A model generated the notes under the pieces. That model saw only the letters and a list, made by a program, of their open reading frames with translations. It was not told the DNA's origin and did not search any database. Source: a virus. From it: 30,518 nt of DNA. Shown here piece by piece: positions 2,400 through 28,493 of the stretch. The position numbers and the translations under genes are program-made. The first letter of the stretch is position 1. Each line of letters starts with the position of its first letter. The DNA is taken from positions 1 through 30,518 of IMG/VR virus record IMGVR_UViG_3300030430_005180, one strand, 5' to 3'.

Positions 2400-3482
2400 A
2401 TGCAAACGGTTCAAAACATTCAGGATATAAAATATTTTACTAATCAATGGGATATAATTGATAATTCATACGAATACACTTTACAATATCCTACCTATGG
2501 TTTCAAAAACACATTTCATACCTTGCCTACTTTCGTAGCAGACTTTCATAATTGTAGCGTCAATAGTTTGCCAATGCTGATCACCGAAGATAGGAAATTA
2601 ATTACCAATCATGTTTGGTCTTTGATTTCAAAATATAGGAACAAACCTCACAAGGTGCATAAAATATTTTCCGAATGGGGCGAAAAAGTAGACGTCGAAA
2701 TGCCGCCTATCACACAACAATTCAATACTCCATGGAAATATGTTTGGTTACCAATTGACGAATATAGTGCTGAAAATCCATGGCACATATGGATGGACAT
2801 TGTATCTAAATTTAGATTGATTGAAAAAAGGTGGAGCACTAATTTTGAAAAATATATTTTCATATTAGCTAATCCAAGCAAATATTTCGAAGCAATATGT
2901 AAAGAATTTTTTCCAGACTTGGAATATCGTGTTATGCCAAAAAATGAAACATGGAGATTCGCTCATCTTGTTGTGCCTTCTTTAAGCAATCATCGAGATG
3001 GAATACTCACTCCTCACATGCCACCATGGATTAGATATCTTGCAAACTTGATTGTTGGAGAAGATATCAAGCCTAGCAGGAAGATTTTTATAACCAGAAA
3101 AGATGCAATGAATAGAAACATTAAAAATCAAAACGAATTATTAATGGCTCTTAAAGGTTGGGAGACAGTAACACTAGAAAACTTATCTATTAAAGATCAA
3201 GTAAAAACTTTTGCAGAAGCCACACATATTGTAAGTCCACACGGTGCAGGCCTGACAAATTTATTATGGTGTCGTCCTAAAACTAAAGTTTATGAACTTA
3301 CCCATAAGGCGTTTATAGGTAAGATTGTTTATCCGTCTCTTTCACATCACTTGGAATTGAAACATCATGTAATACTTTGTGATACTGAAAAAATATCAGG
3401 GCAAAAGCCAAGAAATAAAAAACAAAAGGACATGGTAAATTTAAAAATTAACGTAAAAGATTTTATTTCTTATATAGATTAG
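2400..3482 (+). CDS. GT61 (DUF563)-type glycosyltransferase
   Basis: This 360-residue protein has the C-terminal signature of GT61/DUF563 transferases: a basic RKIFITRKDAMNR strand at 227-239, a loop with a helix, then VSPHGAGLTNLLW around 278-290, followed by a K-V-Y-E-L strand. The NPWHIWMD segment at about 127-133 matches the N-x-x-H motif of these enzymes. GT61 proteins transfer pentoses or hexosamines to glycans. It is alone on this strand, divergent from the SGNH operon with a 14 nt gap, and its stop overlaps the facing gene's stop by 4 nt. Donor and acceptor sugars are not predictable. Family assignment is fairly secure. Confidence 0.75.
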   Translation: MQTVQNIQDIKYFTNQWDIIDNSYEYTLQYPTYGFKNTFHTLPTFVADFHNCSVNSLPMLITEDRKLITNHVWSLISKYRNKPHKVHKIFSEWGEKVDVEMPPITQQFNTPWKYVWLPIDEYSAENPWHIWMDIVSKFRLIEKRWSTNFEKYIFILANPSKYFEAICKEFFPDLEYRVMPKNETWRFAHLVVPSLSNHRDGILTPHMPPWIRYLANLIVGEDIKPSRKIFITRKDAMNRNIKNQNELLMALKGWETVTLENLSIKDQVKTFAEATHIVSPHGAGLTNLLWCRPKTKVYELTHKAFIGKIVYPSLSHHLELKHHVILCDTEKISGQKPRNKKQKDMVNLKINVKDFISYID

Positions 3483-5182: not shown

Positions 5183-6166
5183 ATGAAAAAAATTGCTTTC
5201 GTAACAGGTATGACAGGACAAGACGGACCTTACCTTGCCAAGCATCTATTAGAAAATGAATACAAAGTATATGGTTTGGTAAAAAGATATAGCAATCCAA
5301 ATCTTACTAATCTGAACTATCTGGGAATCGAAAACGATGTTGAACTTATCACCGGTGACATAACTGACGATGCTAATATGAATCATTTAGTAAGAACAAT
5401 TCGTCCTAACGAATTTTATAATCTGGCGGCTCAAAGTTTTGTTGGAGCCAGTTGGGAACTTAACAAGCAAACAACCGAAGTGAACGCCATGGGGGTACTT
5501 AACGTGCTCAATGCGATTGTTAATCAAAATCCAACTACAAAGTTTTATCAAGCAAGTACCAGTGAACTATATGGAAATGCCAATGTGGAAGGAGTACAAG
5601 ACGAACACACTCCGTTTCACCCTAGATCACCCTACGGTGTATCAAAGTTGTATGCATATTGGATGACTGTAAACTTTAGAGAAAGTTATAGCATTCATGC
5701 ATCAAATGGAATACTGTTCAATCACGAATCTCCAATAAGAGGTAAGGAGTTTGTTACACGTAAAATTACAGACGGAGTTGCAAAAATTAAACTAGGCCTT
5801 GCTAAAAAATTGACTCTGGGTAACCTAGATGCAAAAAGAGATTGGGGATTTGCAGGCGACTTTGTGGAGGCAATGTATACAATGGTACAACAACAGGATC
5901 CAGGTGATTATGTAATTTGCACAGGAATACAACATTCAATTAGAGAATTATTGACCCATGCTTTTGAAACAGCAGGCATTAACAATTGGGAACAATATGT
6001 TGAATCGGATCCACGTTTCAAGCGTCCAGCTGAGGTCCATGCACTACATGGATCATATTCCAAGGCAAAAAAAACGTTAGGATGGGAACCTAAAACATCT
6101 TTCAAGGATATGGTTGCTTTAATGGTCACCGAAGATATAAAGAGACTATCCAATGATATACGTTAG
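5183..6166 (+). CDS. gmd: GDP-mannose 4,6-dehydratase
   Basis: A 327-residue short-chain dehydrogenase-fold enzyme that converts GDP-mannose to GDP-4-keto-6-deoxymannose, the precursor of GDP-fucose, GDP-rhamnose and GDP-perosamine. Visible are the NADP-binding GMTGQDG loop (9-15), the catalytic T-S-E triad (126-128) in ASTSELYG, and YGVSK (Tyr151, Lys155). The sequence NHESPIRGKEFVTRKIT and the DAKRDWGFAGDFVEAM block are classic GMD. Length is slightly under the usual 345-370. No later GDP-fucose or perosamine synthase is seen here. It overlaps the next gene by 14 nt. Phage-borne gmd genes are known; here it probably feeds the surrounding glycosyltransferases using host GDP-mannose. Confidence 0.95.
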   Translation: MKKIAFVTGMTGQDGPYLAKHLLENEYKVYGLVKRYSNPNLTNLNYLGIENDVELITGDITDDANMNHLVRTIRPNEFYNLAAQSFVGASWELNKQTTEVNAMGVLNVLNAIVNQNPTTKFYQASTSELYGNANVEGVQDEHTPFHPRSPYGVSKLYAYWMTVNFRESYSIHASNGILFNHESPIRGKEFVTRKITDGVAKIKLGLAKKLTLGNLDAKRDWGFAGDFVEAMYTMVQQQDPGDYVICTGIQHSIRELLTHAFETAGINNWEQYVESDPRFKRPAEVHALHGSYSKAKKTLGWEPKTSFKDMVALMVTEDIKRLSNDIR

Positions 6167-6968
6167 TGCTACCAACAGAAAGTTAACTGAAAAGTATGTT
6201 GACAGTGCCGTCATCGGCCTGCCAAACGCTATCAAATTACAACCTATCGATATAATCAACAAAAAAGATGCCACTAAAGTTGTGATGTTTGGAGTGCTTC
6301 GAGGCACACATCTAGTTTACAAATGGGCCGAAAAAAATAAAATAGATTTTTATTACATCGATAGGCCATATTGGGGAGAAACAAGAAATCATCCTTACTA
6401 TGTTAAAATTGTTAAAAACGGTCATTTGAAAAACTGGATTGAAAAAAGACCTTATGATAGATTTGAAAACTCCTTTCCTTGGCCGATTAAGCCTTGGAAA
6501 AAAAATGGAAAAAATATAATTGTTTGTCCACCATCGAATGCAATGAAAGAATTTTTTAATGTACACGATTGGTTGGAAAATACTTTGAAAACATTGAAAC
6601 AGAATACCGACCGTCCAATTATTGTAAAAAATAAAGGATACAATCCTATCATAGGATATGATAAAAATGGTGGTTATATCGTTACAGGTAAAGACAACCA
6701 AAAGCCAAGTGGACCAATCGATTGGGACAATGCCTATGCTGTTGTCACATATAATTCAAACATCACACTAGAAGCCACAACCAGAGGCATTCCTTGTTTC
6801 ACAGACATACACAATGCTTGTGCGCCTATCTCAGAAACAGATTTCTCAAAGATTGAAAGCCCAAAGTATGAGGACAGGGAACCTTTATATTATTCAATGG
6901 CATATGGTCAATTTACAGAACGAGAAATTAAGAATGGTTACGCATGGGAGATACTAGATGAAAGTTGA
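6153..6968 (+). CDS. Capsule-synthesis-like transferase, paralog 2
   Basis: This 271-residue paralog of the gene at 891 shares AYAVVTYNSNITLEA-T-RGIPCF and the C-terminal LYYSMAYGQFTEREIKNG block, with DRPYWGETR near the N-terminus paralleling DTPYFGR in paralog 1. A mid-protein Arg-Pro/Lys-rich strand (TDRPIIVKNKG) corresponds to the putative donor-binding region. It starts inside the gmd end (14 nt overlap) and overlaps the next paralog by 11 nt, so it belongs to the gmd transcript. Use of a sugar nucleotide derived from the GMD product is plausible but not shown. No transmembrane segment is visible. Confidence 0.6.
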   Translation: MIYVSATNRKLTEKYVDSAVIGLPNAIKLQPIDIINKKDATKVVMFGVLRGTHLVYKWAEKNKIDFYYIDRPYWGETRNHPYYVKIVKNGHLKNWIEKRPYDRFENSFPWPIKPWKKNGKNIIVCPPSNAMKEFFNVHDWLENTLKTLKQNTDRPIIVKNKGYNPIIGYDKNGGYIVTGKDNQKPSGPIDWDNAYAVVTYNSNITLEATTRGIPCFTDIHNACAPISETDFSKIESPKYEDREPLYYSMAYGQFTEREIKNGYAWEILDES

Positions 6969-7938
6969 GATATTTCGAAGAACAGTTAAAGATAGACGTA
7001 GAGGAGCTAGTTGGGATCTTTTACAACACATGGCCGACGGAGTACGAGCATGTGGTGATGAACCTATAATGGTTAATGAACACAAAACAGGTCCATGGAC
7101 CAAAGATGAGATGGAACCAACTGCACCAATAGGTTGCATGTTTGGTTATGGTGGTAGCAATCAAATGCATCACACTAAAGGACGAAGGAGAGACCTTGTC
7201 GAACGTGCAAAGAAAAAAGGCATTTATATAATCACATTTGATGGTGGATTGATGAGTAGTTTTGGCAATGTTCATGGCCCCAATCATCACTGGCGGGTAT
7301 CATTATACTCACCCATGAACAATGGCAATTTTTTATCTGATAATAGTGCACCTGATAGGTGGGAGATGATGAAAAAATTATGGAATGTGAAATATGAATC
7401 GTGGAGGAAAAGTGAACAGGATGACCCAATAATGTTTGTTTTACAACCAAGTGATAACTGGAGTATGAATGAACTAGATCCTATTGCTTGGTTCAAAGGC
7501 GTGTATCAAAAAATACGTCCTTTAACAAAACGTAAATTCATAGTGCGTCCACATCCTAATCATGTTGCCGCCATAGAAAAACGTATTGGAGAATTTCCGA
7601 AAGACGTCGACGTACACATAGGACAAAAATTTTTCCAAGGAGATGAGAAAAAGTACTACAGATTTCATTTCCAGGAAGCAATAACTAATGTCCATGCTGT
7701 TGTTACTCACAATTCTACTGCCAGTGTCGACTCTTGCATTCGTGGAATCCCTACCTTTGTTACCTCAGATCTTGCACTTTGTTGGCCAGTAGCTAATACA
7801 GATCTAGCTAAGATTGAAACTCCGGAAACACCTGACAGGACACAATGGGTTTATGATTTAGGTTATAAACTTTGGAGCGAACAAGAAATTAAAAATGGCA
7901 CTGTATTCAAACGTTTCAAAACAAAGTTAGGTTTATAA
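6958..7938 (+). CDS. Capsule-synthesis-like transferase, paralog 3
   Basis: At 326 residues this is the longest of the four capsule-like paralogs. The shared block reads HAVVTHNSTASVDSCIRGIPTF, then NTDLAKIETPETPDR, YDLGYKLWSEQEIKNG. A conserved FIVRPHPNH strand near residue 195-203 matches the R-P-H-P motif of KpsC/KpsS-type and related GT-B transferases, which use CMP-Kdo or other activated sugars. Its stop shares one base with the asparagine synthetase start (TAATG). The N-terminal 150 residues differ from the other copies, suggesting a different acceptor. Function is inferred from the motif family and from position in the glycan operon. Confidence 0.65.
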   Translation: MKVEIFRRTVKDRRRGASWDLLQHMADGVRACGDEPIMVNEHKTGPWTKDEMEPTAPIGCMFGYGGSNQMHHTKGRRRDLVERAKKKGIYIITFDGGLMSSFGNVHGPNHHWRVSLYSPMNNGNFLSDNSAPDRWEMMKKLWNVKYESWRKSEQDDPIMFVLQPSDNWSMNELDPIAWFKGVYQKIRPLTKRKFIVRPHPNHVAAIEKRIGEFPKDVDVHIGQKFFQGDEKKYYRFHFQEAITNVHAVVTHNSTASVDSCIRGIPTFVTSDLALCWPVANTDLAKIETPETPDRTQWVYDLGYKLWSEQEIKNGTVFKRFKTKLGL

Positions 7939-9677
7939 TGTGCGGTATCTACGGCATCACAGAACATAATCCAGCCCTGATTAACAACTATATCAAAACC
8001 TGTAGTCATAGAGGACCAGATGGAAACAAAGTCTGGTGGGATCCAGAAAATAAACTTACTCTAGGACATAACTTACTTTCGATAATGAGTGATCCAAAGT
8101 TATCAGTGCAACCATGGAAAACACCAGCTGGCAACTGGCTGATTTACAATGGAGAGATATTCAACTATTATGAACTCAAAGACAAGTACAAAGGAAGAGG
8201 ATTTGCTGGTATAACTGGATGTGACACAGAACTTTTAGCTTGGGGTTTGGACACGTTTGGTTTAGATTTTTTGAATGAAATAGATAGTATGCACTCGTTT
8301 GCTTATTACAGGGTAAAACAAGATGAACTATGGATATCGAGAGATCATGCAGGAATAAAACCTCTTTATTATGCAGAAGTAAAACAGGGATTAATTTTTG
8401 GAAGCGAGATAAAAGGACTCTTAAAATATGTTGACAAGTCTAACATAATAGATCCTTTGGCGTTCAGTAGCATGGCTCATGTTGGTCTGAATCCCACTGC
8501 AAACACTTTTTTTACAAATATCAAAAAACTGCTATCTGGCGAAACAATAGTATATGATTTGAGAAATAAAAAAATAAAAAACAAAAAAAGAAATTTAATA
8601 ATTCCAAAGAATAATCATACCTTTGATCCAGAAGAGTTCAGGGCAGTAACAAGAGAAAGCGTAAAACTATGTAGCATAGGACGGAGAAAGATTGGCATTT
8701 TTCTCAGTGGTGGATTAGACAGTGGTATGGTTGCATACGAATACAAACAATTGCATGGAACGGCAAACACATACACAAACAACATGGATCCTAACATAAT
8801 ATGGCGAGAGGACGATCACAACGATGATCATAACAAAGCCTTGCAACTTGCAAAACAATATGGATTCAATCACAAGGTTGTCACCATGACTCCAAAAATA
8901 TTGACTGAAATGTGGGATAGTAGCATTTACTTCATGGAGCAACCGGTATATAATCCTTCAATGGTTATGTATTATTATACAAACAAAGTACTATCAGACG
9001 ATGGCATAGTGGTAACTTTAGCTGGCGACATGGGTGATGAGGTGTTAGGAGGTTATCCTAAGTATTGGAAACTTAGAAACAAAAACGTTTCGACCTGGAA
9101 CGGTTTGATTGAAGCATGGATGAATAGGATTAAACGTCCGATACAAGTAACCAATACTCCTATTTCAAGAGAAGATCTGCAAAGTTATTTTGTGAAAACA
9201 TTCCCGCAAGAATTGTATGATTCAAAAGATCCAGTGAATTCTTACATGGCACTGGATTGTGTAACACAGGTGCCCGAGGAATTTTTTATTCGAAATGACA
9301 CATATGGTATGGCGTTTAGTATGGAAGGACGTTTTCCATTAGCAACAAAAAAATTCATGCAATATGCTTTGAATATAAGTTCACGAGAAAAAATTGGAAT
9401 GCATAAGCACCAAACAAAACTTTTAAGCAAGAAAGCGTATCAGGATATTTTTCCTAAAGAAATAGTTCACAAGCATAAGACAGGCTGGACAGCTCCTGTC
9501 AAAGGATGGATACAGGATGAAGAAGTTGCTAAAAAATATTATGAAAAAAGAATGAAACAATCAAATTGTCTAGAAAAAATTGTAATCAGGCAAAATGAAA
9601 CAACAAAGTCTGCCATACCTGCGTGGATACTACGAGACTGGGCAAATAAATTCAACATGGAGTTCAAAATTAAATAG
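7938..9677 (+). CDS. asnB: Glutamine-dependent asparagine synthetase
   Basis: A 579-residue two-domain enzyme. The N-terminal glutaminase carries the required Cys2 (MCGIYG), SHRGPDG (23-29) and NGEIFNY (71-77). The synthetase domain has the ATP pyrophosphatase loop SGGLDSG at 257-263 and a later GDMGDEVLGGYPKYW block. It makes asparagine from aspartate, glutamine and ATP. Some AsnB-like proteins in polysaccharide loci amidate uronic acids or other carboxylates instead. Position between a capsule-like transferase and a glycosyltransferase makes that alternative worth keeping. No domain is truncated. It starts one base before the end of the upstream gene's stop, so translation is coupled. Confidence 0.9.
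   Translation: MCGIYGITEHNPALINNYIKTCSHRGPDGNKVWWDPENKLTLGHNLLSIMSDPKLSVQPWKTPAGNWLIYNGEIFNYYELKDKYKGRGFAGITGCDTELLAWGLDTFGLDFLNEIDSMHSFAYYRVKQDELWISRDHAGIKPLYYAEVKQGLIFGSEIKGLLKYVDKSNIIDPLAFSSMAHVGLNPTANTFFTNIKKLLSGETIVYDLRNKKIKNKKRNLIIPKNNHTFDPEEFRAVTRESVKLCSIGRRKIGIFLSGGLDSGMVAYEYKQLHGTANTYTNNMDPNIIWREDDHNDDHNKALQLAKQYGFNHKVVTMTPKILTEMWDSSIYFMEQPVYNPSMVMYYYTNKVLSDDGIVVTLAGDMGDEVLGGYPKYWKLRNKNVSTWNGLIEAWMNRIKRPIQVTNTPISREDLQSYFVKTFPQELYDSKDPVNSYMALDCVTQVPEEFFIRNDTYGMAFSMEGRFPLATKKFMQYALNISSREKIGMHKHQTKLLSKKAYQDIFPKEIVHKHKTGWTAPVKGWIQDEEVAKKYYEKRMKQSNCLEKIVIRQNETTKSAIPAWILRDWANKFNMEFKIK
9669..9676 (+). promoter_or_regulatory. Late-promoter-like box ATTAAATA
   Basis: ATTAAATA overlaps the asnB stop codon and lies exactly six bases (GGAAAT) before the ATG at 9683. 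The six-base gap also contains GGA, so a weak ribosome binding site may operate on read-through mRNA from the asnB transcript. Confidence 0.4.
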
Positions 9678-17296: not shown

Positions 17297-17531
17297 AATA
17301 AAAATTGATATTGATAACGAACTAGATTTCGATTTAGAAGAAGGTGACATGGTAATACATATTAAACACGATGGAGAAATTGGAAAAGTTTGTATGCCTG
17401 AAATGAGTAGCAAGGTACAAAACAGTCTAGGTTATAAAAAAATGTTACAATGTTTAGAAATATTGAAGCCGGGAACAGAAGATGAATTTATCAAATATCA
17501 TGAGAAACAAAGAAAAGGAACAATGCATTAA
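17289..17531 (+). CDS. Small acidic unknown protein with TTG start
   Basis: From the TTG at 17289 this is an 80-residue protein beginning MSRIKIDIDNELDFDLEEGD. The start is chosen because AAGGAGG lies six bases upstream and the next candidate ATG (17349) lacks such a site. The N-terminal third is strongly acidic; the C-terminal part is helical with KMLQCLEILKPG. No known motif is visible. It overlaps the zinc-finger gene by 8 nt and the mini-DnaE gene by one base (TAATG), so the three are coupled. Its location immediately before a polymerase-like protein makes it a candidate partner, without direct evidence. Confidence 0.7.
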   Translation: MSRIKIDIDNELDFDLEEGDMVIHIKHDGEIGKVCMPEMSSKVQNSLGYKKMLQCLEILKPGTEDEFIKYHEKQRKGTMH

Positions 17532-18121
17532 TGCCTGATGTAGACATAGATTTCTTTGACAGAGACGGTGTATTGAAACTTTTCAAGCATACTCCGGCAA
17601 CAATGATTAAAGAAGACAAAATTGAAAAACACAAAACCGGAGTGTATTTCCACGCTGTTCCTCAACATCCGGTTACCGGACACAGCACAATAGATTATAA
17701 AGAGGCAGAAGATCGAGGCTACTTCAAGATAGATTGCCTAAACGTAAGCATTTATAAAAATATCAAATCCGAACAAGAACTTGTAGAACTTATGATACAA
17801 GAACCTGATTGGGACATGTTGAAAGATCAAAAGATCGTTGATCAACTTTTCCATCTGAATGGCCATTTCAATATTGTGTCAAAACTTCAACCAAAAACTA
17901 TAGAACAACTTGCGGCTGTGTTGGCAATAATACGTCCTGCCAAAAGGCAGTTGATGCATAAGGAATGGAAAGATATACTAGCTGAGGTTTGGGTGCGTCC
18001 ACAAGATGGCAGTTACTTCTTTAAAAAATCACACGCAGTGGCCTATGCCCATGCAATAGTTGTGCAGATGAATTTGATGACAAAAGATAAATATAGTTTT
18101 GATGAAGCATCAAAAAACTAG
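17531..18121 (+). CDS. Miniature DnaE-like (Pol III alpha palm) protein
   Basis: This 196-residue protein opens with PDVDIDF (2-8), the DnaE palm motif that supplies two catalytic aspartates (Asp3 and Asp5; E. coli D401 and D403). A GYFKIDCL segment supplies a third Asp at 68 (E. coli D555, in VKFDFLGL). Then follow LAIIRPAK (132-138), like ALFRPGP, and FFKKSHAVAYA (163-173), like YGFNKSHSAAYA. The spacing between blocks is greatly shortened: DnaE has about 150 residues between the first and third Asp, this protein 63. It has no PHP, OB or tau-binding domain. It could be a non-catalytic regulator, a template-binding protein or a minimal enzyme. Similar proteins may exist in marine T4-like phages, but I cannot search. 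Confidence 0.7.
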   Translation: MPDVDIDFFDRDGVLKLFKHTPATMIKEDKIEKHKTGVYFHAVPQHPVTGHSTIDYKEAEDRGYFKIDCLNVSIYKNIKSEQELVELMIQEPDWDMLKDQKIVDQLFHLNGHFNIVSKLQPKTIEQLAAVLAIIRPAKRQLMHKEWKDILAEVWVRPQDGSYFFKKSHAVAYAHAIVVQMNLMTKDKYSFDEASKN

Positions 18122-21919: not shown

Positions 21920-22360
21920 GTGATCTTGATTTCGCACAGAGGGAACACCAACGGTCCAAACCCTAAAAAAGAAAATACAATACAATATATCGAGCAAACT
22001 TTAAAGCAAGGTTATCATTGTGAAATAGATATTTGTAAGTTTGATGGAAGAAAATTCTATTTGGGCCATGACGAACCAGGAGAGCCTGTTTCCATAGATT
22101 GGTTGAACACAAATCAAGTATGGTGCCATGCAAAAAATTATAATGCACTGGAGGCATTAGTTACACTTGGAATACATTGCTTTTGGCATCAAACAGACAA
22201 ATACACCATTACTTCGCAAGGTTGGATATGGGCGTATCCTGGACAACCAGGAGGCAAGTACACCATAGCAGTTCATCCAGAAAGATTAACCAATGATGAA
22301 GTAAAAAAATTTGCAGGGGTGTGTAGTGACTACATAGATAATTATAAGGAGACATCATGA
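21920..22360 (+). CDS. Short GDPD-like (glycerophosphodiesterase fold) protein
   Basis: A 146-residue protein with a GTG start and a GAGGA ribosome binding site (21906-21910). It carries the GDPD signature: His6-Arg7 (ISHRGN), Glu18 in KENT, Glu35-x-Asp37 (HCEIDI) and His50-Asp51 (LGHDEPG). In GDPD enzymes these bind calcium and cleave glycerophosphodiesters to glycerol-3-phosphate and an alcohol. The usual barrel is about 240 residues or more, so this is a short form covering the first two-thirds, with a tail holding FWHQTD and WIWAYPG strands. It may be a nucleotide- or sugar-phosphate-binding variant. Its stop overlaps the nucleotidyltransferase start by 4 nt. Confidence 0.75.
   Translation: MILISHRGNTNGPNPKKENTIQYIEQTLKQGYHCEIDICKFDGRKFYLGHDEPGEPVSIDWLNTNQVWCHAKNYNALEALVTLGIHCFWHQTDKYTITSQGWIWAYPGQPGGKYTIAVHPERLTNDEVKKFAGVCSDYIDNYKETS
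22346..22351 (+). promoter_or_regulatory. Shine-Dalgarno AAGGAG
   Basis: AAGGAG with a five-base spacer precedes the ATG at 22357, supporting strong independent initiation of the nucleotidyltransferase inside the GDPD reading frame. Confidence 0.6.
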
Positions 22361-23064
22361 ACATTATAGTACCAATGGCCGGAGCAGGATCACGTTTTGA
22401 AAAAGCCGGCTATACATTTCCAAAACCTTTGATTGAAGTAAAAGGTCAACCGATGATAGCCAAGGTTGTTGAAAATTTAAATTTACAAGGCAAGTATATT
22501 TTTTTAGTGCAAAAAGCACATTATGAAAAATATGACTTGGAAAATCTTTTGAATTTAATAGCACCTGGATGTGAGATTGTTCAGATAGACGGACTGACAG
22601 AAGGAGCCGCTTGTACGGTGCTGAAAGCCAGAGAACTTATAGATAATGATCAACCATTGTTAATTTCAAATTCCGATCAATGGATCAAGTGGAATAGTTT
22701 TGAGACCATATCATCTTTCAATAATGAAGATGGTGGCATACTGACTTTTAAGAGTGTTCATCCAAAACATAGTTTTGCCAAAGTAGATGGTGACGGATAC
22801 GTCACTGAGGTGGCCGAAAAGAATCCAATATCAAGTGATGCGACTGTAGGAATATATCATTGGAAACGTGGCAGTGACTTTGTGAAATACGCGGATCAAA
22901 TGATTGCAAACGATATAAGAACCAACAACGAATTTTACATTTGTCCGGTGTACAACGAAGCACTTAAGGATGGCTTTAAAATCAAAGCTAGTCTTGTTGA
23001 CCAAATGTGGGGCATGGGGACTCCGGAAGAGTTAAACAATTTTTTAGCACACTATAAAGAATAA
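22357..23064 (+). CDS. Sugar-phosphate nucleotidyltransferase
   Basis: This 235-residue enzyme has the nucleotidyltransferase N-terminal loop MAGAGSRF (7-14), FPKPL (21-25), TEGAA (81-85), the metal-binding NSD (105-107), AEKNP with Lys156, VGIYHW and NEFY (191-194). This is the glucose-1-phosphate thymidylyltransferase and related group, which joins an NTP to a sugar-1-phosphate or to phosphocholine (LicC). Length is close to single-domain members without a C-terminal beta-helix. Specificity cannot be decided. It overlaps the GDPD-like gene by 4 nt and shares one base with the RuBisCO-like gene (TAATG), implying one operon for an activated sugar or polyol. Confidence 0.85.
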   Translation: MNIIVPMAGAGSRFEKAGYTFPKPLIEVKGQPMIAKVVENLNLQGKYIFLVQKAHYEKYDLENLLNLIAPGCEIVQIDGLTEGAACTVLKARELIDNDQPLLISNSDQWIKWNSFETISSFNNEDGGILTFKSVHPKHSFAKVDGDGYVTEVAEKNPISSDATVGIYHWKRGSDFVKYADQMIANDIRTNNEFYICPVYNEALKDGFKIKASLVDQMWGMGTPEELNNFLAHYKE

Positions 23065-24254
23065 TGCTTTTTTACAACAACAAAATTGACGAAGACAAAT
23101 ATGTGATTGCGACATATTTTATAAAAAGCAAAAACGCTGACCTGGCAACATGTGCATGGAACTTGGCTATTGGACAAAGCGTGGGAAATCCTAATGTGCG
23201 AAATCAATGGGAGTCTGAAGAACTTTTTGAACAAAGCAGTTGTGTCATTGTGCATGACAAAAAAGAATTACAGACACTGACACAGGGCGAGGTAAAAATT
23301 GCTTTTCCAATCATAAACACTGACTGGCAAGGCGACGGAGTAAGTCATTTACTATGCCAATTGATGGGAGGACAAATGGATATTGATACCTTTGATAGTT
23401 GTCGATTGATACATCTAGTTTTTCCCGATGCTGTTAAGAAATATTTTTTAGGACCTGCTCACGGAATAACCGGAATGCGTGATTACACTAAACGATACAA
23501 CAAACCATTCAGCGGAGCAATAGTAAAACCTAAAACAGGTATGCCAGCCGAGACTCTGTTAAACATGGTCAAGGAACTTGTTGACGGTGGGTGTGATTTT
23601 ATAAAAGAGGATGAAATAATGAGCAACCCAAGTTTTTGCAGTTTGGAGGAAAGGGTGCCGTTGATTGCTAACTGGTTGAACTCACAAAGTAAAAAAGTAG
23701 TCTATGCAGTTTGTATCAATGGTGATCATGATCATATTCTCAAAAGAACAAAAATGGTTGCAGACATGGGAGGTAACGCAATACATGTAAATTTCTGGTC
23801 AGGCTTTGGAGTTTACAATGCAATAAGAAAAATGGATACAGGATTATTTTTACACTTTCAGAAATCCGGAGACAAGGTTATAACAGACAAAAGACATGCA
23901 TTCGGTATTGATTGGAATGTCATATGCCAATTGGCAGGCATGATGGGTGTAGATACTATACACGCAGGCATGTGGGGTGGTTATCTAAGCGATGACGAAG
24001 ACGACTTGCGTGACACAATAAATGTTTTACATGATCATAATGTTGTGCCAGCCTTAAGTTGCGGAATGCATCCTGGCCTTGTACAAGCAAATATAAAACA
24101 ATTTGGTAATGATTTCATAGCCAACGTTGGAGGTGCAATACACGGACACCCAATGGGAACTTTGGCAGGTGCCAAAGCCATGAGGCAGGCAATTGATAAA
24201 ACACACGGTCTTGAATACGAACAAGCAATCGCCAAGTGGGGCTTTGTAAAATGA
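23064..24254 (+). CDS. RuBisCO-like protein (form IV type)
   Basis: This 396-residue protein has the RuBisCO large-subunit plan: an N-terminal domain (YVIATYF, KIAFPI) and a barrel with GAIVKPKTGM (Lys155, Lys157; spinach K175, K177), FIKEDE (Lys181, Asp183, Glu184; the carbamylated K201 and metal ligands D203, E204), His264 (H292), His300 (H327), Ser332 (S379) and VGGAIHGHPMG (G403, G404). Several carboxylase residues are replaced: E60 to Gly37, T65 to Asn42, W66 to Pro43, N123 to Gly103, H294 to Gln266, R295 to Lys267 and K334 to Tyr307. It should therefore not fix CO2. Known form IV enzymes enolise or isomerise sugar-phosphate-like compounds (MtnW, methylthioribulose-1-phosphate isomerase, isoapionate enzymes). 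It is coupled to the nucleotidyltransferase and a glycosyltransferase-like gene, suggesting an unusual sugar step. Confidence 0.9.
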   Translation: MLFYNNKIDEDKYVIATYFIKSKNADLATCAWNLAIGQSVGNPNVRNQWESEELFEQSSCVIVHDKKELQTLTQGEVKIAFPIINTDWQGDGVSHLLCQLMGGQMDIDTFDSCRLIHLVFPDAVKKYFLGPAHGITGMRDYTKRYNKPFSGAIVKPKTGMPAETLLNMVKELVDGGCDFIKEDEIMSNPSFCSLEERVPLIANWLNSQSKKVVYAVCINGDHDHILKRTKMVADMGGNAIHVNFWSGFGVYNAIRKMDTGLFLHFQKSGDKVITDKRHAFGIDWNVICQLAGMMGVDTIHAGMWGGYLSDDEDDLRDTINVLHDHNVVPALSCGMHPGLVQANIKQFGNDFIANVGGAIHGHPMGTLAGAKAMRQAIDKTHGLEYEQAIAKWGFVK

Positions 24255-24964
24255 TCAAAGCAGACGAGATAGCAGTATGCGTTTCTGGTCTTGCACGTGA
24301 AGGTTACAAGGAAGCACTTCAAATTGCAAAAAGAGTATTTCCTTTTGATACTTTCCATATGCATTGGAAGGGATATGACTTACCAGAAGTTCATAATCTA
24401 ACTTTGTTCGATGAGCCTGTGTATGAATATCATAATCTACTGGATACAAAATACAAACCAGATTGTGACATATGGAGACGTTACACCCAAGGTCCTCGGG
24501 CAAAACTTTTCCGTAGAAAAGGCTTGTTGGCTAAAACAAAACACAATTCAAAACAGACACTTGCTCATTATTGGCTTGTGAATACCTTACCTGAAAAATA
24601 CAAAACAATTATTAAACTAAGATACGATACGATACTAAGTGAGAAGGTTGATTTTATGCCTCTACTGGAAAAAGCACAACAAGGCACCGTGATAGGCATC
24701 GCAGGTAGTAAACCAGGATACGATGGTGACTCCCCTCTGAAATTGCATACCTATAAGTGTTGTAGACGTTGCACAGGACCATACTTGTGGGACCATTTAA
24801 TTTTTCATCCAAGGCACAAACTTAAAAATGTTGAAGAAGAATTTAACAATAAAAATTTAATGGGAGCCGAATGGGGTTGGTATCAAATTTTACATCACCA
24901 ATGGCAGGACAACAATTATATTAATGTTGAGGGCGGTAATGTTCTAGCTGTGCATAGACAATGA
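24251..24964 (+). CDS. Glycosyltransferase-like protein of glycan loci
   Basis: The ATG at 24251, overlapping the RuBisCO-like stop by 4 nt, gives 237 residues; a further upstream in-frame start lies inside that gene and is unlikely. The protein opens with IAVCVSGLAREGYKEAL and contains TIIKLRYDTIL around residue 120, where R-x-D resembles the R-x-D motif of several capsule-locus transferases that lack a DxD. A CCRRC cysteine cluster (about 170) and a closing GAEWGWYQIL segment follow. I do not recognise a named family with certainty; a GT-A-like transferase is the best reading. It overlaps the methyltransferase by 4 nt, placing it in the same five-gene cassette. Confidence 0.6.
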   Translation: MIKADEIAVCVSGLAREGYKEALQIAKRVFPFDTFHMHWKGYDLPEVHNLTLFDEPVYEYHNLLDTKYKPDCDIWRRYTQGPRAKLFRRKGLLAKTKHNSKQTLAHYWLVNTLPEKYKTIIKLRYDTILSEKVDFMPLLEKAQQGTVIGIAGSKPGYDGDSPLKLHTYKCCRRCTGPYLWDHLIFHPRHKLKNVEEEFNNKNLMGAEWGWYQILHHQWQDNNYINVEGGNVLAVHRQ

Positions 24965-25626
24965 AATACTACGGTTGGGAAGTCATTGATGATCCTATGT
25001 ATCATAGGTTTTTAAAAGAGAATATAGATGTAACCAAAGAAGACATTAAAGAAATGTCGCGAGTAATCAAGAAGTTTGTTTTTGATACAACCACCGCAGT
25101 AGATATTGGTTGCCATTATGGATTTTTTACTAGGTTCCTATCCGAACAATTCAAAACTGTACACGCATTTGATTTCAATAATGATATCTTCGAATGTTTC
25201 AAAGAGAACATGAAAAAGTTTAAGTGTGAAAATGTTATTGCCTATCCACATGGACTAGGTGAAAAACAAAAATATGTTGCGACCAACGATTGGTCGGAAC
25301 GGCACAAGAGAAGAGGACCGTTGGCAAATCATATTGATCCGGAAGGCAAAAAGCAATTGCAAAAAATAAAAACTCTTGATAGTTTTAATTTGGAAGGTGT
25401 TGGCTTGATAATGTGTGATACGGAAGGTTACGAACTTAATGTTATTAAGGGTGCTTTACAAACAATTAAAAAATGTAAGCCTGTTTTAGTTTTAGAATTT
25501 CATAATCGTAAATTAACAAAAAAGTTTGGATACACACTAAAACATTTACAAGACTACGTAGAAAGTTTAGGTTATCGATCTATAGGTTACATGAACAAAG
25601 TTGATCAAATTTTTGTTCCAGAATAA
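24961..25626 (+). CDS. FkbM family methyltransferase
   Basis: This 221-residue protein has SAM motif I VDIGCHYGFF (47-56), an acidic strand AFDFNN (69-74), the FkbM motif CDTEGYELNVIKGA (about 152-165) and a LVLEFHNRK strand. It ends the RuBisCO-like cassette and overlaps the upstream gene by 4 nt. FkbM enzymes O-methylate sugars or hydroxyl groups, fitting a final modification of the glycan made by the cassette. It is only distantly similar to the two FkbM proteins at the left end, so it was probably acquired separately or has diverged widely. A 51 nt gap with a GATAAATA box separates it from the polymerase gene. Confidence 0.85.
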   Translation: MKYYGWEVIDDPMYHRFLKENIDVTKEDIKEMSRVIKKFVFDTTTAVDIGCHYGFFTRFLSEQFKTVHAFDFNNDIFECFKENMKKFKCENVIAYPHGLGEKQKYVATNDWSERHKRRGPLANHIDPEGKKQLQKIKTLDSFNLEGVGLIMCDTEGYELNVIKGALQTIKKCKPVLVLEFHNRKLTKKFGYTLKHLQDYVESLGYRSIGYMNKVDQIFVPE

Positions 25627-25677: not shown

Positions 25678-27372
25678 ATGAAAAAAGATAAAGAACTGAA
25701 CGACATAACAAGGCTGTACGATAGATTCATTAGGCAATGTCCAGGCACAGAAGAATACACGCAAAGGCTCGCCGAGGAAACTCAAATCATCCTTCGACTA
25801 CGTTTCGTAGACTATTTCATCCAAATATGTGATATACTTGCAATAACCAGGGACATACCTCATATGACTCGTGGTTCCGCAGGTTCATCACTTGTCTGCT
25901 ATCTACTTGGCATAACAGATGTAGATCCTGTGGAGTGGGGAATACCGGTGGCACGGTTTCTCAATCCTAACAGAGACGACCTACCTGATGTCGATATAGA
26001 TTTCCCCCATTATCGTCAGGAAGAAGTCATGCGGAGAATATTTGATCGCTGGCCCGGAAAGTCTGCCAGAATATCAAATTACGTGCTCTATCAAGATAAG
26101 TCGGCAAGACGTGAAGCGGCAAAGCGATTAGGTGCTAAGGGTAATCTCCCTCGCAGGTTTACATACGAATCGGTGGGAGTTGATCCTGCTGAGGCAAAGC
26201 GTATAGAAAACAAATTGAAAGGCAAGAAAAGATGCATATCAAAACACTGCGGAGGAATACTGATGTTTCAAAGACAACTACCAAAAAGCCTGTTCACGGC
26301 AGAAAATCAAATACTACTAGACAAGAACGAAGTGGAGGATCTCGAACACCTAAAGGTGGATATTTTAGCCAATCGTGGTTTGTCACAACTCATAGAGATA
26401 GATCCTACAATGAGACTGACAGACTATCCAGAAGAGGATTCAGATACTTCAGCCCTGTTGTGCAGGGGAGATGTGTTGGGAGTAACACAAGCAGAAAGTC
26501 CAGCCATGAGGAGATTGTTCAGAGCTATACAACCAAAAAGTAGGAAAGATTGTGTGTTTGGCACAGCGTTGATAAGGCCTGTTGCCATATCCGGACGCAA
26601 GAAAGCAACCATGTTTCATGACTGGTCACAGGAGAGGATGAGTGACACCATAGTGTATGAGGATGATGCCATAGACAGAATATCAGAAGTGTTGAACATA
26701 GACAAGTACGAAGCGGACATGTACCGCAGAGCATTTGCCAAAAAAAATGAAGAAAAGTGCATGGAGTTCATATCAAGACTGGGCAACCATCCACGCAAAG
26801 AAGAAATTATTACAATGCTACAATCACTTTCGGGATTTGGATTGTGCAGAGCCCATGCTGTAAACTTAGGCAGACTGATATGGGCGTTGGCCTATCAGAA
26901 AGCACACAACCCAGAAAAATTTTGGCAGTCGTGTTTGAAACACTGCCAAGGATCATACAAGCGTTGGGTATACAGAACAGAAGCCAAACGTGTGGGAATC
27001 GAGGTTGTTACTCCGAGCAAATCGGATAATTGGGATACACCACAATTCCAATATCGCAAATATGGTTGGTGGAGTTCACGTGACTTCATGCCAGGCATGT
27101 ATGTCAGAGAACTTTACGGAGACAAAGTGGAGTTTGCAGGTTTAGTTGCCAACGGAAGAGTGTTTAGGGGTGACAAAGGAAGGTACGTCACGTTCTTAAC
27201 GCTAGGTGTCGGCAACGGACAATATGTAGATGTCACAATCAAAAAACCTTTCTCATACAGCGATCATGATGTGGTCTGGGGACAGGGCACAATCAGACAC
27301 AGCAACAATTCAGATTATGTTGAATGTTACGATTACCAAGGCTATCGTTTGGAGAAATTCGCGAAAGCGTAA
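25678..27372 (+). CDS. DnaE-type DNA polymerase core without PHP domain
   Basis: A 564-residue C-family polymerase core. Motifs run in DnaE order: TRGSAGSSLVCYLLGITDVDP (64-84 region; GSAGSS at 66-71), FLNPNRDDLPDVDIDF with Asp104 and Asp106 (E. coli D401, D403), SKHCGGILM like HAGGVVIAP, LKVDILANRGL with Asp228 (D555), GVTQAESPAMRRL, ALIRPVAISG, YRRAFAKKNEEKC and GFGLCRAHAVNLGRLIWALAYQKAHNPEKFW. A C-terminal OB-like stretch (VEFAGLVANGRVF, RYVTFLTL) follows. The N-terminal PHP domain (about 270 residues) and the tau-binding tail of cellular DnaE are absent. It could be a replicative or accessory translesion polymerase. The base composition is less AT-rich than the upstream genes. Confidence 0.85.
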   Translation: MKKDKELNDITRLYDRFIRQCPGTEEYTQRLAEETQIILRLRFVDYFIQICDILAITRDIPHMTRGSAGSSLVCYLLGITDVDPVEWGIPVARFLNPNRDDLPDVDIDFPHYRQEEVMRRIFDRWPGKSARISNYVLYQDKSARREAAKRLGAKGNLPRRFTYESVGVDPAEAKRIENKLKGKKRCISKHCGGILMFQRQLPKSLFTAENQILLDKNEVEDLEHLKVDILANRGLSQLIEIDPTMRLTDYPEEDSDTSALLCRGDVLGVTQAESPAMRRLFRAIQPKSRKDCVFGTALIRPVAISGRKKATMFHDWSQERMSDTIVYEDDAIDRISEVLNIDKYEADMYRRAFAKKNEEKCMEFISRLGNHPRKEEIITMLQSLSGFGLCRAHAVNLGRLIWALAYQKAHNPEKFWQSCLKHCQGSYKRWVYRTEAKRVGIEVVTPSKSDNWDTPQFQYRKYGWWSSRDFMPGMYVRELYGDKVEFAGLVANGRVFRGDKGRYVTFLTLGVGNGQYVDVTIKKPFSYSDHDVVWGQGTIRHSNNSDYVECYDYQGYRLEKFAKA

Positions 27373-27449: not shown

Positions 27450-27455
27450 ATGGTA

Positions 27456-28493
27456 ATGATAAACAAAAGATTGTTTGAACACTATCGAATCGACACGAAC
27501 AAAAATCTCGACATACGCAGGCGCTGTCCGCGACCCAGAGACACAATACTGATTGACAAGCAGGGCTCGTGTTATGCCTGCGAATGCCAGTCATGGTTGC
27601 CACAGAGCATCGGCAATCTGCAGATACGAAGCCTAGCGGAAATAATCGGATCGGACATGCATCAGCATCTGCAGTCAAGCATAGACGATGGCACATACAG
27701 ATACTGCAACGAGAACCAATGCTCATATCTCAAGTTAGGTGCTGTATTGCATGGCCAGCCGGATCGCATACAACACCTTAGACTCGCGATAGACGACAGC
27801 TGTAATCTCAGATGTCCAAGTTGCCGAAAACACCTCATATTCCACAAGGAAGGTTCTGCATACAGTCTGGGTATCAAACTGGCAGACAAGATAAACGATT
27901 GGTTACACGAAAGCAAACATGCGATACAGGTGCACATAGGATCCGATGGTGATCCATTCGCATCACACGTGTACAGGTACTTCATGGATCAGACACCGGA
28001 GCGGGAAAACATCAAGTACAGCATACTGACCAATGGCCTGATGTTCAAGGAGTTCCACACACGGGTGCCCAATGTAATACGCAACCTCAAAGAGCTGGGT
28101 GTCAGCATCGATGGTGCAACCAAGGAGACCTATGAGAAACTGCGACTGGGAGGCAAGTGGGATAAGATCACCGAGAACCTCGAGTGCATGGCCGAACAGA
28201 AACAGCGGCATGGTTTCAGTTGGATACTGCAATTTGTGGTGCAGAAAGACAACTATCATGAGATGGAGGCCATAATAGATCTCGGAGAACAATACGGCGC
28301 CGATAGGGTGTACCTGAACAAGATCGAAGACTGGGGCACATTGGATGATTTTCATTCGCAGAACATATGGGCCACCGAAGGCTATCAAAAGCAACTGGAG
28401 AGGGTGCTTGGCCGTATACACTCACGGCAAGATCGATTCATCGAATGCCCCACACTGATAACCGAGGCAGTGCGAAACAGAAAAAAGTCATAG
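27456..28493 (+). CDS. Radical SAM enzyme with N-terminal SPASM-like cysteines
   Basis: A 345-residue protein (347 if begun at 27450). The radical SAM cluster motif C-x3-C-x2-C lies at 118, 122, 125 (numbered from 27450) in DDSCNLRCPSCRK, followed by GSDGDPF and a SIDGATKETYEKLR strand, typical of radical SAM/SPASM enzymes. Unusually, the SPASM-like part (RRCPRPRDTILIDKQGSC, CECQ, IGNLQIRSLAEII, then C86 and C91) precedes the radical SAM core, whereas it normally follows it. Such enzymes often modify peptides or sugars. No peptide substrate gene is visible nearby. GC is near 50%, higher than most of the window, suggesting recent acquisition. The stop abuts the converging SGNH gene. Confidence 0.8.
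   Translation: MINKRLFEHYRIDTNKNLDIRRRCPRPRDTILIDKQGSCYACECQSWLPQSIGNLQIRSLAEIIGSDMHQHLQSSIDDGTYRYCNENQCSYLKLGAVLHGQPDRIQHLRLAIDDSCNLRCPSCRKHLIFHKEGSAYSLGIKLADKINDWLHESKHAIQVHIGSDGDPFASHVYRYFMDQTPERENIKYSILTNGLMFKEFHTRVPNVIRNLKELGVSIDGATKETYEKLRLGGKWDKITENLECMAEQKQRHGFSWILQFVVQKDNYHEMEAIIDLGEQYGADRVYLNKIEDWGTLDDFHSQNIWATEGYQKQLERVLGRIHSRQDRFIECPTLITEAVRNRKKS

Follow-up and report, generated by a model that had tools for sequence, protein, structure and literature searches.

A RuBisCO-like protein of a separate clade, encoded beside a sugar-phosphate nucleotidyltransferase in environmental phages

The RuBisCO-like protein and its locus

The window, by which we mean the whole 30,518-nucleotide viral stretch that was analysed (IMG/VR record IMGVR_UViG_3300030430_005180), encodes a RuBisCO-like protein (RLP) within a tightly packed run of genes. 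The features relevant to the argument are as follows.

2400-3482, + strand: glycosyltransferase family 61 (PF04577, E 1e-24)
5183-6166, + strand: GDP-mannose 4,6-dehydratase, a nucleotide-sugar enzyme elsewhere in the contig (PF16363, E 5e-117)
21920-22360, + strand: compact GDPD-like phosphodiesterase, 146 aa, with HRG, EN, ExD and GHD motifs
22357-23064, + strand: sugar-phosphate nucleotidyltransferase, 235 aa (PF00483, E 1e-9; phrog_3980, E 2e-73; PDB 4evw, E 5e-21)
23064-24254, + strand: RLP, 396 aa, ATG start
24236-24964, + strand: conserved neighbour, 242 aa, recognised by synteny; no family found
24961-25626, + strand: FkbM-type methyltransferase (PF05050, E 3e-13; TIGR01444, above cut-off)

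The gene at 23064-24254, called a RuBisCO-like protein in an earlier note made from the sequence alone, encodes a genuine full-length homologue of the RuBisCO large chain. The protein matches Pfam PF00016 (RuBisCO_large) with E 1.2e-42, and its best single-sequence match in the PDB is the form III RuBisCO of P. horikoshii (2cwx, E 7e-38). An AlphaFold2 model computed with 43 homologues has a mean pLDDT of 93.3 and a pTM of 0.92; its best structural match is form III RuBisCO 2d69 (TM 0.88), and the predicted chain combines the N-domain and TIM-barrel fold of the superfamily with the RuBisCO_large domain. The structural check proposed in that note thus bears out its assignment.

Alignment with reference sequences also upholds all seven active-site replacements that had been read from the letters. 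In spinach numbering, followed by the RLP's own, these are E60 to G37, T65 to N42, W66 to P43, N123 to G103, H294 to Q266, R295 to K267 and K334 to Y307. The carbamylation lysine and metal ligands are intact as claimed, the positions given (Lys181, Asp183 and Glu184) being those of the RLP itself and equivalent to spinach K201, D203 and E204. Spinach K175 and K177 are retained as K155 and K157, and Q266, Y307 and C333 are signature residues of the clade. Across 81 phage homologues the active-site positions checked are invariant, except at the R295 site. One of the 81 is truncated and lacks the C-terminal positions; K334, H294, N123, E60, T65 and W66 are replaced in 80-81 of them. Because dN relative to close relatives is only 0.04-0.21 while synonymous sites are saturated, the RLP gene is judged to be under strong purifying selection.

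A separate clade of the RuBisCO family

A tree of 58 sequences (LG+C20+F+G4 by PMSF, 1000 ultrafast bootstraps, SH-aLRT) took as references forms I, II and III, MtnW, DeepYkr, and the photo and non-photo RLPs, the 2007 IV-GOS sequences being left out. Phage and cellular RLPs unite in a single clade (support 100/100), separate from every one of these reference groups. Placement within forms I-III was not recovered in this tree, as the earlier note had anticipated. Its description of the residues as the form IV pattern holds in part. The RLP is of form IV in a broad sense, for it lies outside the carboxylases (100/100) and several active-site residues, K334, H294 and N123 among them, are substituted. 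However, the sampled known form IV groups retain H294 and mostly W66 or F, and K177, which is present in the RLP clade, is absent from every form IV reference sampled. Glutamine at H294 and proline at W66 occur in the RLP clade only and in none of the sampled reference groups.

Two form IV groups of known chemistry invite comparison. With MtnW, the DK-MTP-1-P enolase, and DeepYkr, which includes the R. rubrum MTRu-1-P isomerase that works with a cupin partner, the RLP has in common the fold, the carbamate/Mg site and the loss of carboxylase residues. It differs in forming a separate clade (100/100), in keeping K177, in the changes of H294 to Q, W66 to P and K334 to Y, and in having a nucleotidyltransferase and a GDPD-like protein as neighbours; its score against TIGR03332 is 130 bits, where the cut-off is 514. 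The non-photo enzymes OiaX and OiaC (PDB 3nwr), whose substrates are sugar-acid phosphates, resemble the RLP in the KP motif at K175 and in the carbamate/Mg site. The non-photo group, however, retains H294, R295 and K334 and lacks K177; the RLP clade is separate from it at 100/99, and the RLP reaches 154 bits against NF042437, far from the cut-off of 700.

These observations bear directly on whether the RLP is a working RuBisCO that raises host carbon fixation. Database annotation by homology would favour such a role, and surveys of the Great Salt Lake (PMC8506154), landfills (PMC12607003) and mine soils (PMC12615777) have increasingly listed viral rbcL among carbon-fixation genes; in the mine soils at least one viral rbcL, of proteobacterial affinity and with co-expressed rbcS, was reported to be active. 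In the present protein and its relatives, however, the residues of a true RuBisCO (loop-6 K334, H294, N123 and T65/W66) have become Y307, Q266, G103 and N42/P43, and E60 is lost as well; form III archaeal RuBisCO (2cwx/2d69), about 25% identical to the RLP, has its carboxylase residues intact. The clade stands outside forms I-III, and neither a small subunit nor a phosphoribulokinase was noticed nearby. Judged by these residues, the RLP is almost certainly unable to act as a normal carboxylase. A working RuBisCO can therefore hardly be credited, and both the residues and the tree led to rejection of a CO2-fixing auxiliary gene.

The clade may overlap the IV-GOS group of 2007, with which it was compared by description. 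It has possibly been seen before without a function or a phage origin, since the GOS paper described 65 sequences that grouped with none of the known RuBisCOs (PMC1821046) and a later review names an IV-GOS group (PMC10173188). Like the RLP clade, IV-GOS is a marine form IV group without an assigned role; the available text of PMC1821046 and PMC10173188 makes no link from it to phages or to the cassette described below. A landfill viral rbcL that clustered with "RbcL-like" proteins was also found in a 100,000-virus IMG/VR sample (PMC12607003). In the literature searched, subscription papers lying outside the search, we found no description of the RLP clade, its residues or its cassette.

Among phages the gene is an environmental one. 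A tblastn search of 50,697 isolate phage records (INPHARED) gave no match to the RLP, and the BFVD viral models gave no convincing match to the RuBisCO fold. IMG/VR holds 190 stretches encoding relatives when queried with the single sequence and at least 332 when queried with an alignment; the best 80 of the 190 are 56-100% identical to the RLP. The gene is thus common among environmental phages rather than unique. The label "T4-like" is unsupported for the window contig, which shows no T4 hallmark in its 30.5 kb: its DnaB is closest (51%) to that of jumbo phages of the PA5oct type, and it encodes a polymerase of the Pol III alpha family. Large carriers of the gene (110-274 kb) do encode the T4-superfamily capsid protein gp23, in 9 of 15 records tested. 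Two Pol III alpha-type ORFs are found in the window, at 17531-18121 (phrog_11778) and 25678-27372 (phrog_405 / PF07733); they may be parts of one split polymerase, and the sugar cassette lies between them.

In GTDB the clade occurs in SAR11, three Legionella, Azospirillum, Elusimicrobia, a Verrucomicrobiia MAG, Patescibacteria and DPANN archaea. Among 398 sampled Pseudomonadota genomes no further member turned up besides the Legionella centre. The SAR11 proteins fall into two groups, with about 70% and about 45% identity, and the gene copies are chromosomal, one lying between pheST/lepA and gyrB and another beside an O-antigen ligase. The nucleotidyltransferase-RLP pair of the window is 71% identical in DNA to one SAR11 locus over 1.9 kb, with the same gene order. 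Two cellular assignments call for caution. A 3302-bp contig in the Crocinitomicaceae MAG UBA8924 has all five of its five ORFs 100% identical to those of an IMG/VR phage contig and is apparently a viral contig mis-binned into a bacterial genome; an RLP-cupin-nucleotidyltransferase locus on a 142-kb contig of a Sphingobacteriales MAG has phage-like neighbours and is probably another.

The cassette and its interchangeable front ends

The neighbouring cassette, which the earlier note did not mention, provides the main clue to the function of the RLP. The stop codon of the nucleotidyltransferase gene overlaps the RLP start (ATAATGC), and the GDPD-like gene in turn overlaps the nucleotidyltransferase start (CATCATGA). 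This arrangement is widespread: the RLP gene overlaps or abuts the upstream gene in 78 of 80 cases, and 81 RLP loci include the nucleotidyltransferase in 80, the GDPD-like protein in 70 and a 107-aa cupin in 51. The usual order is nucleotidyltransferase-cupin-RLP, and the cupin directly precedes the RLP in many loci; the window belongs to a subgroup without an adjacent cupin. In 19 loci of that subgroup the 242-aa neighbour, which has no match in Pfam, lies 3' of the RLP. The FkbM-type methyltransferase is a candidate for O-methylation of a glycan.

The GDPD-like protein is so labelled because it is short and falls below the Pfam threshold; a complete GDPD domain takes about 240 aa, and its 146 residues gave no Pfam match. 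In an alignment of 36 sequences H6, R7, E18, N19, E35, D37 and H50 are invariant, and the metal-site motifs HR, EN, ExD and HD are all present. Comparison with a full GDPD protein of PF03009 by hhalign gave E 6e-8 over the N-terminal 48 columns only. The putative GDPD-like fold is thus assigned from motifs and a partial profile match.

Cellular RLPs are likewise accompanied by the nucleotidyltransferase, in SAR11, Legionella, Elusimicrobia and archaea. In Legionella the RLP neighbour on the opposite strand is a LicD-family protein; members of that family transfer phospho-alcohols or phospho-sugars from nucleotide donors. Taken together, the associations make it very probable that the RLP belongs to a nucleotide-sugar/glycan cassette. 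They also speak to whether the RLP might be catalytically dead, or structural baggage in a hypervariable phage region, a thought encouraged by the description of large cyanophage LPS clusters as possible "stuffer DNA" (PMC3037559). Active-site residues that do not vary across 81 homologues, the strong purifying selection, a gene tightly coupled to that of the nucleotidyltransferase, and copies kept in SAR11, Legionella and archaeal genomes make a dead protein very improbable indeed.

Three other settings were considered and dropped. A defence role found no encouragement in PADLOC, which returned no match for the RLP, the nucleotidyltransferase or the GDPD-like protein. A MEP/isoprenoid role had been suggested by a weak IspD match of the nucleotidyltransferase (E 6e-4) and was set aside because its stronger matches are sugar nucleotidyltransferases and 4evw. 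A phosphonate pathway, suggested by apparent PepM/PntC-like fusions in cyanophage S-SM2, was abandoned; the S-SM2 proteins are a double nucleotidyltransferase, a GT61 protein and a class II aldolase. Two further genes of the window may be recorded here: a glutamine-dependent asparagine synthase-like protein at 7938-9677 (PF00733 + GATase_7; phrog_16728), which is kept in related loci at variable position, and a radical SAM/SPASM protein near the cassette, at 27450-28493, which is conserved among phages of the subclade to which the window belongs.

Homologues of the nucleotidyltransferase also occur in isolated cyanophages, which lack the RLP; some of these phages have the GDPD-like protein and cupin as well. 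The place of the RLP is taken by other modules, all of them sugar-phosphate enzymes. In Bellamy, where cupin and GDPD-like neighbours are those of the RLP loci, the nucleotidyltransferase is fused to RpiB, and SynMITS9220M01 has the same architecture. In S-SKS1 the homologous nucleotidyltransferase is fused to DHBP synthase (RibB), and in S-CAM9, which has only the GDPD-like neighbour in common with RLP loci, to a HAD protein of the beta-phosphoglucomutase family. The nucleotidyltransferases of RLP and replacement cassettes are about 30-66% identical. When the cupin of Bellamy was used to query IMG/VR, 72 loci were found: 61 have the nucleotidyltransferase-RpiB fusion, 11 lack it and none has an RLP; in the six of these 11 that were inspected, a PfkB-like kinase (weak Pfam matches) and a HAD protein precede the nucleotidyltransferase. 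Conversely, RpiB is found in none of the 81 RLP loci, a RibB domain lying near one of them. Over whole records, RpiB is absent from all 18 RLP phages and RLP from all 12 RpiB/RibB/other phages, a mutual exclusivity that partly reflects different phage lineages.

RpiB and DHBP synthase both act on ribulose-5-phosphate by enediol chemistry, as RuBisCO does on RuBP. In a second interpretation the RLP cleaves or rearranges a C-C bond, like the OiaX decarboxylase and OiaC or functionally like DHBP synthase, so that a sugar phosphate is shortened or branched ahead of nucleotidyl transfer. Such chemistry is that of form IV non-photo OiaX/OiaC; the RLP gives a partial match to the NCBIfam OiaX model (E 4e-45, far below cut-off), and the DHBP synthase module of S-SKS1 removes a carbon as formate. 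But the RLP lies outside the non-photo clade, the H294 of the non-photo enzymes is Q in the RLP, and RpiB, the replacement found most often, is an isomerase. We regard C-C cleavage as unlikely.

The cupin raises a different comparison, with methionine salvage, where the RLP would be an MtnW-type enolase or a methylthioribulose-1-phosphate isomerase of the R. rubrum type. In R. rubrum the DeepYkr isomerase pairs with a cupin sulfurylase (PMC4958253), and the cupin gene stands directly before the RLP in many phage loci. The precedent is evidence only that RLPs can isomerise, since it comes from another clade and its cupin desulfurises. Nor is the phage cupin specific to the RLP, for it accompanies the RpiB version as well, and the idea was rejected on that ground. 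The RLP is split from MtnW/DeepYkr at 100/100, K177 is absent from MtnW, whose residue at the R295 site is P, and no gene of methionine salvage was noticed among the neighbours conserved around the RLP. Methionine salvage is thus very improbable.

Proposed reaction and meaning for viral rbcL

The best-supported function, through residues and cassette, is the one the earlier note had guessed at, enolisation or isomerisation of a phosphorylated sugar-like compound. Loss of K334 leaves carboxylation unsupported, and with the carbamate, the Mg site, K175 and K177 kept, formation and reprotonation of a metal-bound enediolate should be possible. This combination fits a ketose-phosphate isomerase or epimerase that supplies the nucleotidyltransferase. 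Such an activity on a sugar monophosphate seems to us somewhat more probable than not, and we think it reasonably probable that the RLP is a RuBisCO-fold sugar-monophosphate enolase/isomerase, or epimerase, feeding a nucleotide-activated sugar for surface glycans.

The fold, the residues, the clade and the cassette are observed, as is the exchange of the RLP for other enzymes of sugar phosphates; from these we infer an isomerase or epimerase reaction, a substrate, the nucleotide used and a glycan target, in the following scheme. The carbamylated K181, with Mg2+ held by D183 and E184, would remove a proton next to the ketone and so form an enediolate bound to Mg. Reprotonation at another carbon or face would then fall to K155 (spinach K175), with K157 (K177) tuning it. 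The simplest substrate would be a pentulose monophosphate, for instance ribulose-5-phosphate or something closely related to it. The translationally coupled nucleotidyltransferase would activate the resulting sugar monophosphate, glycosyl- or phosphosugar-transferases would place the activated sugar on a surface glycan resembling O-antigen, and editing or finishing of the product may be the task of the cupin and the GDPD-like protein.

Two points restrain this preferred reading. The P1-site side chains T65, W66 and K334 are lost, so that phosphate binding is not assured. In addition, DHBP synthase removes carbon, HAD proteins are phosphatases or mutases and PfkB proteins are kinases; since the modules that stand in for one another thus differ in their reactions, co-occurrence and replacement leave the reaction of the RLP unfixed, and the modules may make different sugars for related nucleotidyltransferases.

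Variation within the phage proteins is relevant to the substrate. At spinach positions 295, 298 and 327, which change together, 44 homologues have K/D/H (the window RLP is of this type), 30 have S/A/Q and seven have K/D/Q. R295, H298 and H327 are the positions that bind the C5 phosphate of RuBP. Neither main type resembles a bisphosphate site, which makes a monophosphate substrate likely, and the K/D/H and S/A/Q subtypes likely use different substrates.

Although RuBisCO is among the best-studied enzymes, this large and conserved clade has had no assigned function, and the cassette would add a new one to the fold. The broadest proposal is that of a nucleotide-(phospho)sugar pathway, not described before, that marine and freshwater phages would share with SAR11 and with a scatter of other bacteria and archaea. 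Its isomerase, a RuBisCO-fold enzyme from a new clade of form IV with two phage subtypes (K/D/H and S/A/Q) acting on different substrates, would be a front end interchangeable with RpiB, DHBP synthase, HAD or PfkB kinase on a core of nucleotidyltransferase, cupin and GDPD-like protein, by which phages would remodel host surface glycans. We find this proposal, taken whole, about equally open to belief and doubt. The glycosyltransferases that SAR11 phages encode are considered a means of modifying the host O-antigen against coinfection (PMC7029224). The functionality of cyanophage LPS genes was left open by Sullivan et al. in 2010, and the cassette, with its few enzymes and interchangeable front ends, offers a way to test what LPS-type genes do in T4-like phages (PMC3037559).

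Replacement of the RLP by an ordinary sugar-phosphate enzyme in related phages suggests that such viral "RuBisCO" genes reshape the host surface rather than fix carbon. Since the residues and context of this family point to glycan synthesis, viral rbcL calls need to be checked at K334 and H294 before they are read as CO2 fixation. The S-SKS1 gene at 6001-7428, annotated only as DHBP synthase, encodes a nucleotidyltransferase-DHBP synthase fusion and is likely a glycan-pathway enzyme rather than one of riboflavin synthesis. Finally, in six chromosomal SAR11 loci (L089, L091-L094 and L096) two different nucleotidyltransferase paralogues flank the RLP, one before and one after, which suggests two activated products.
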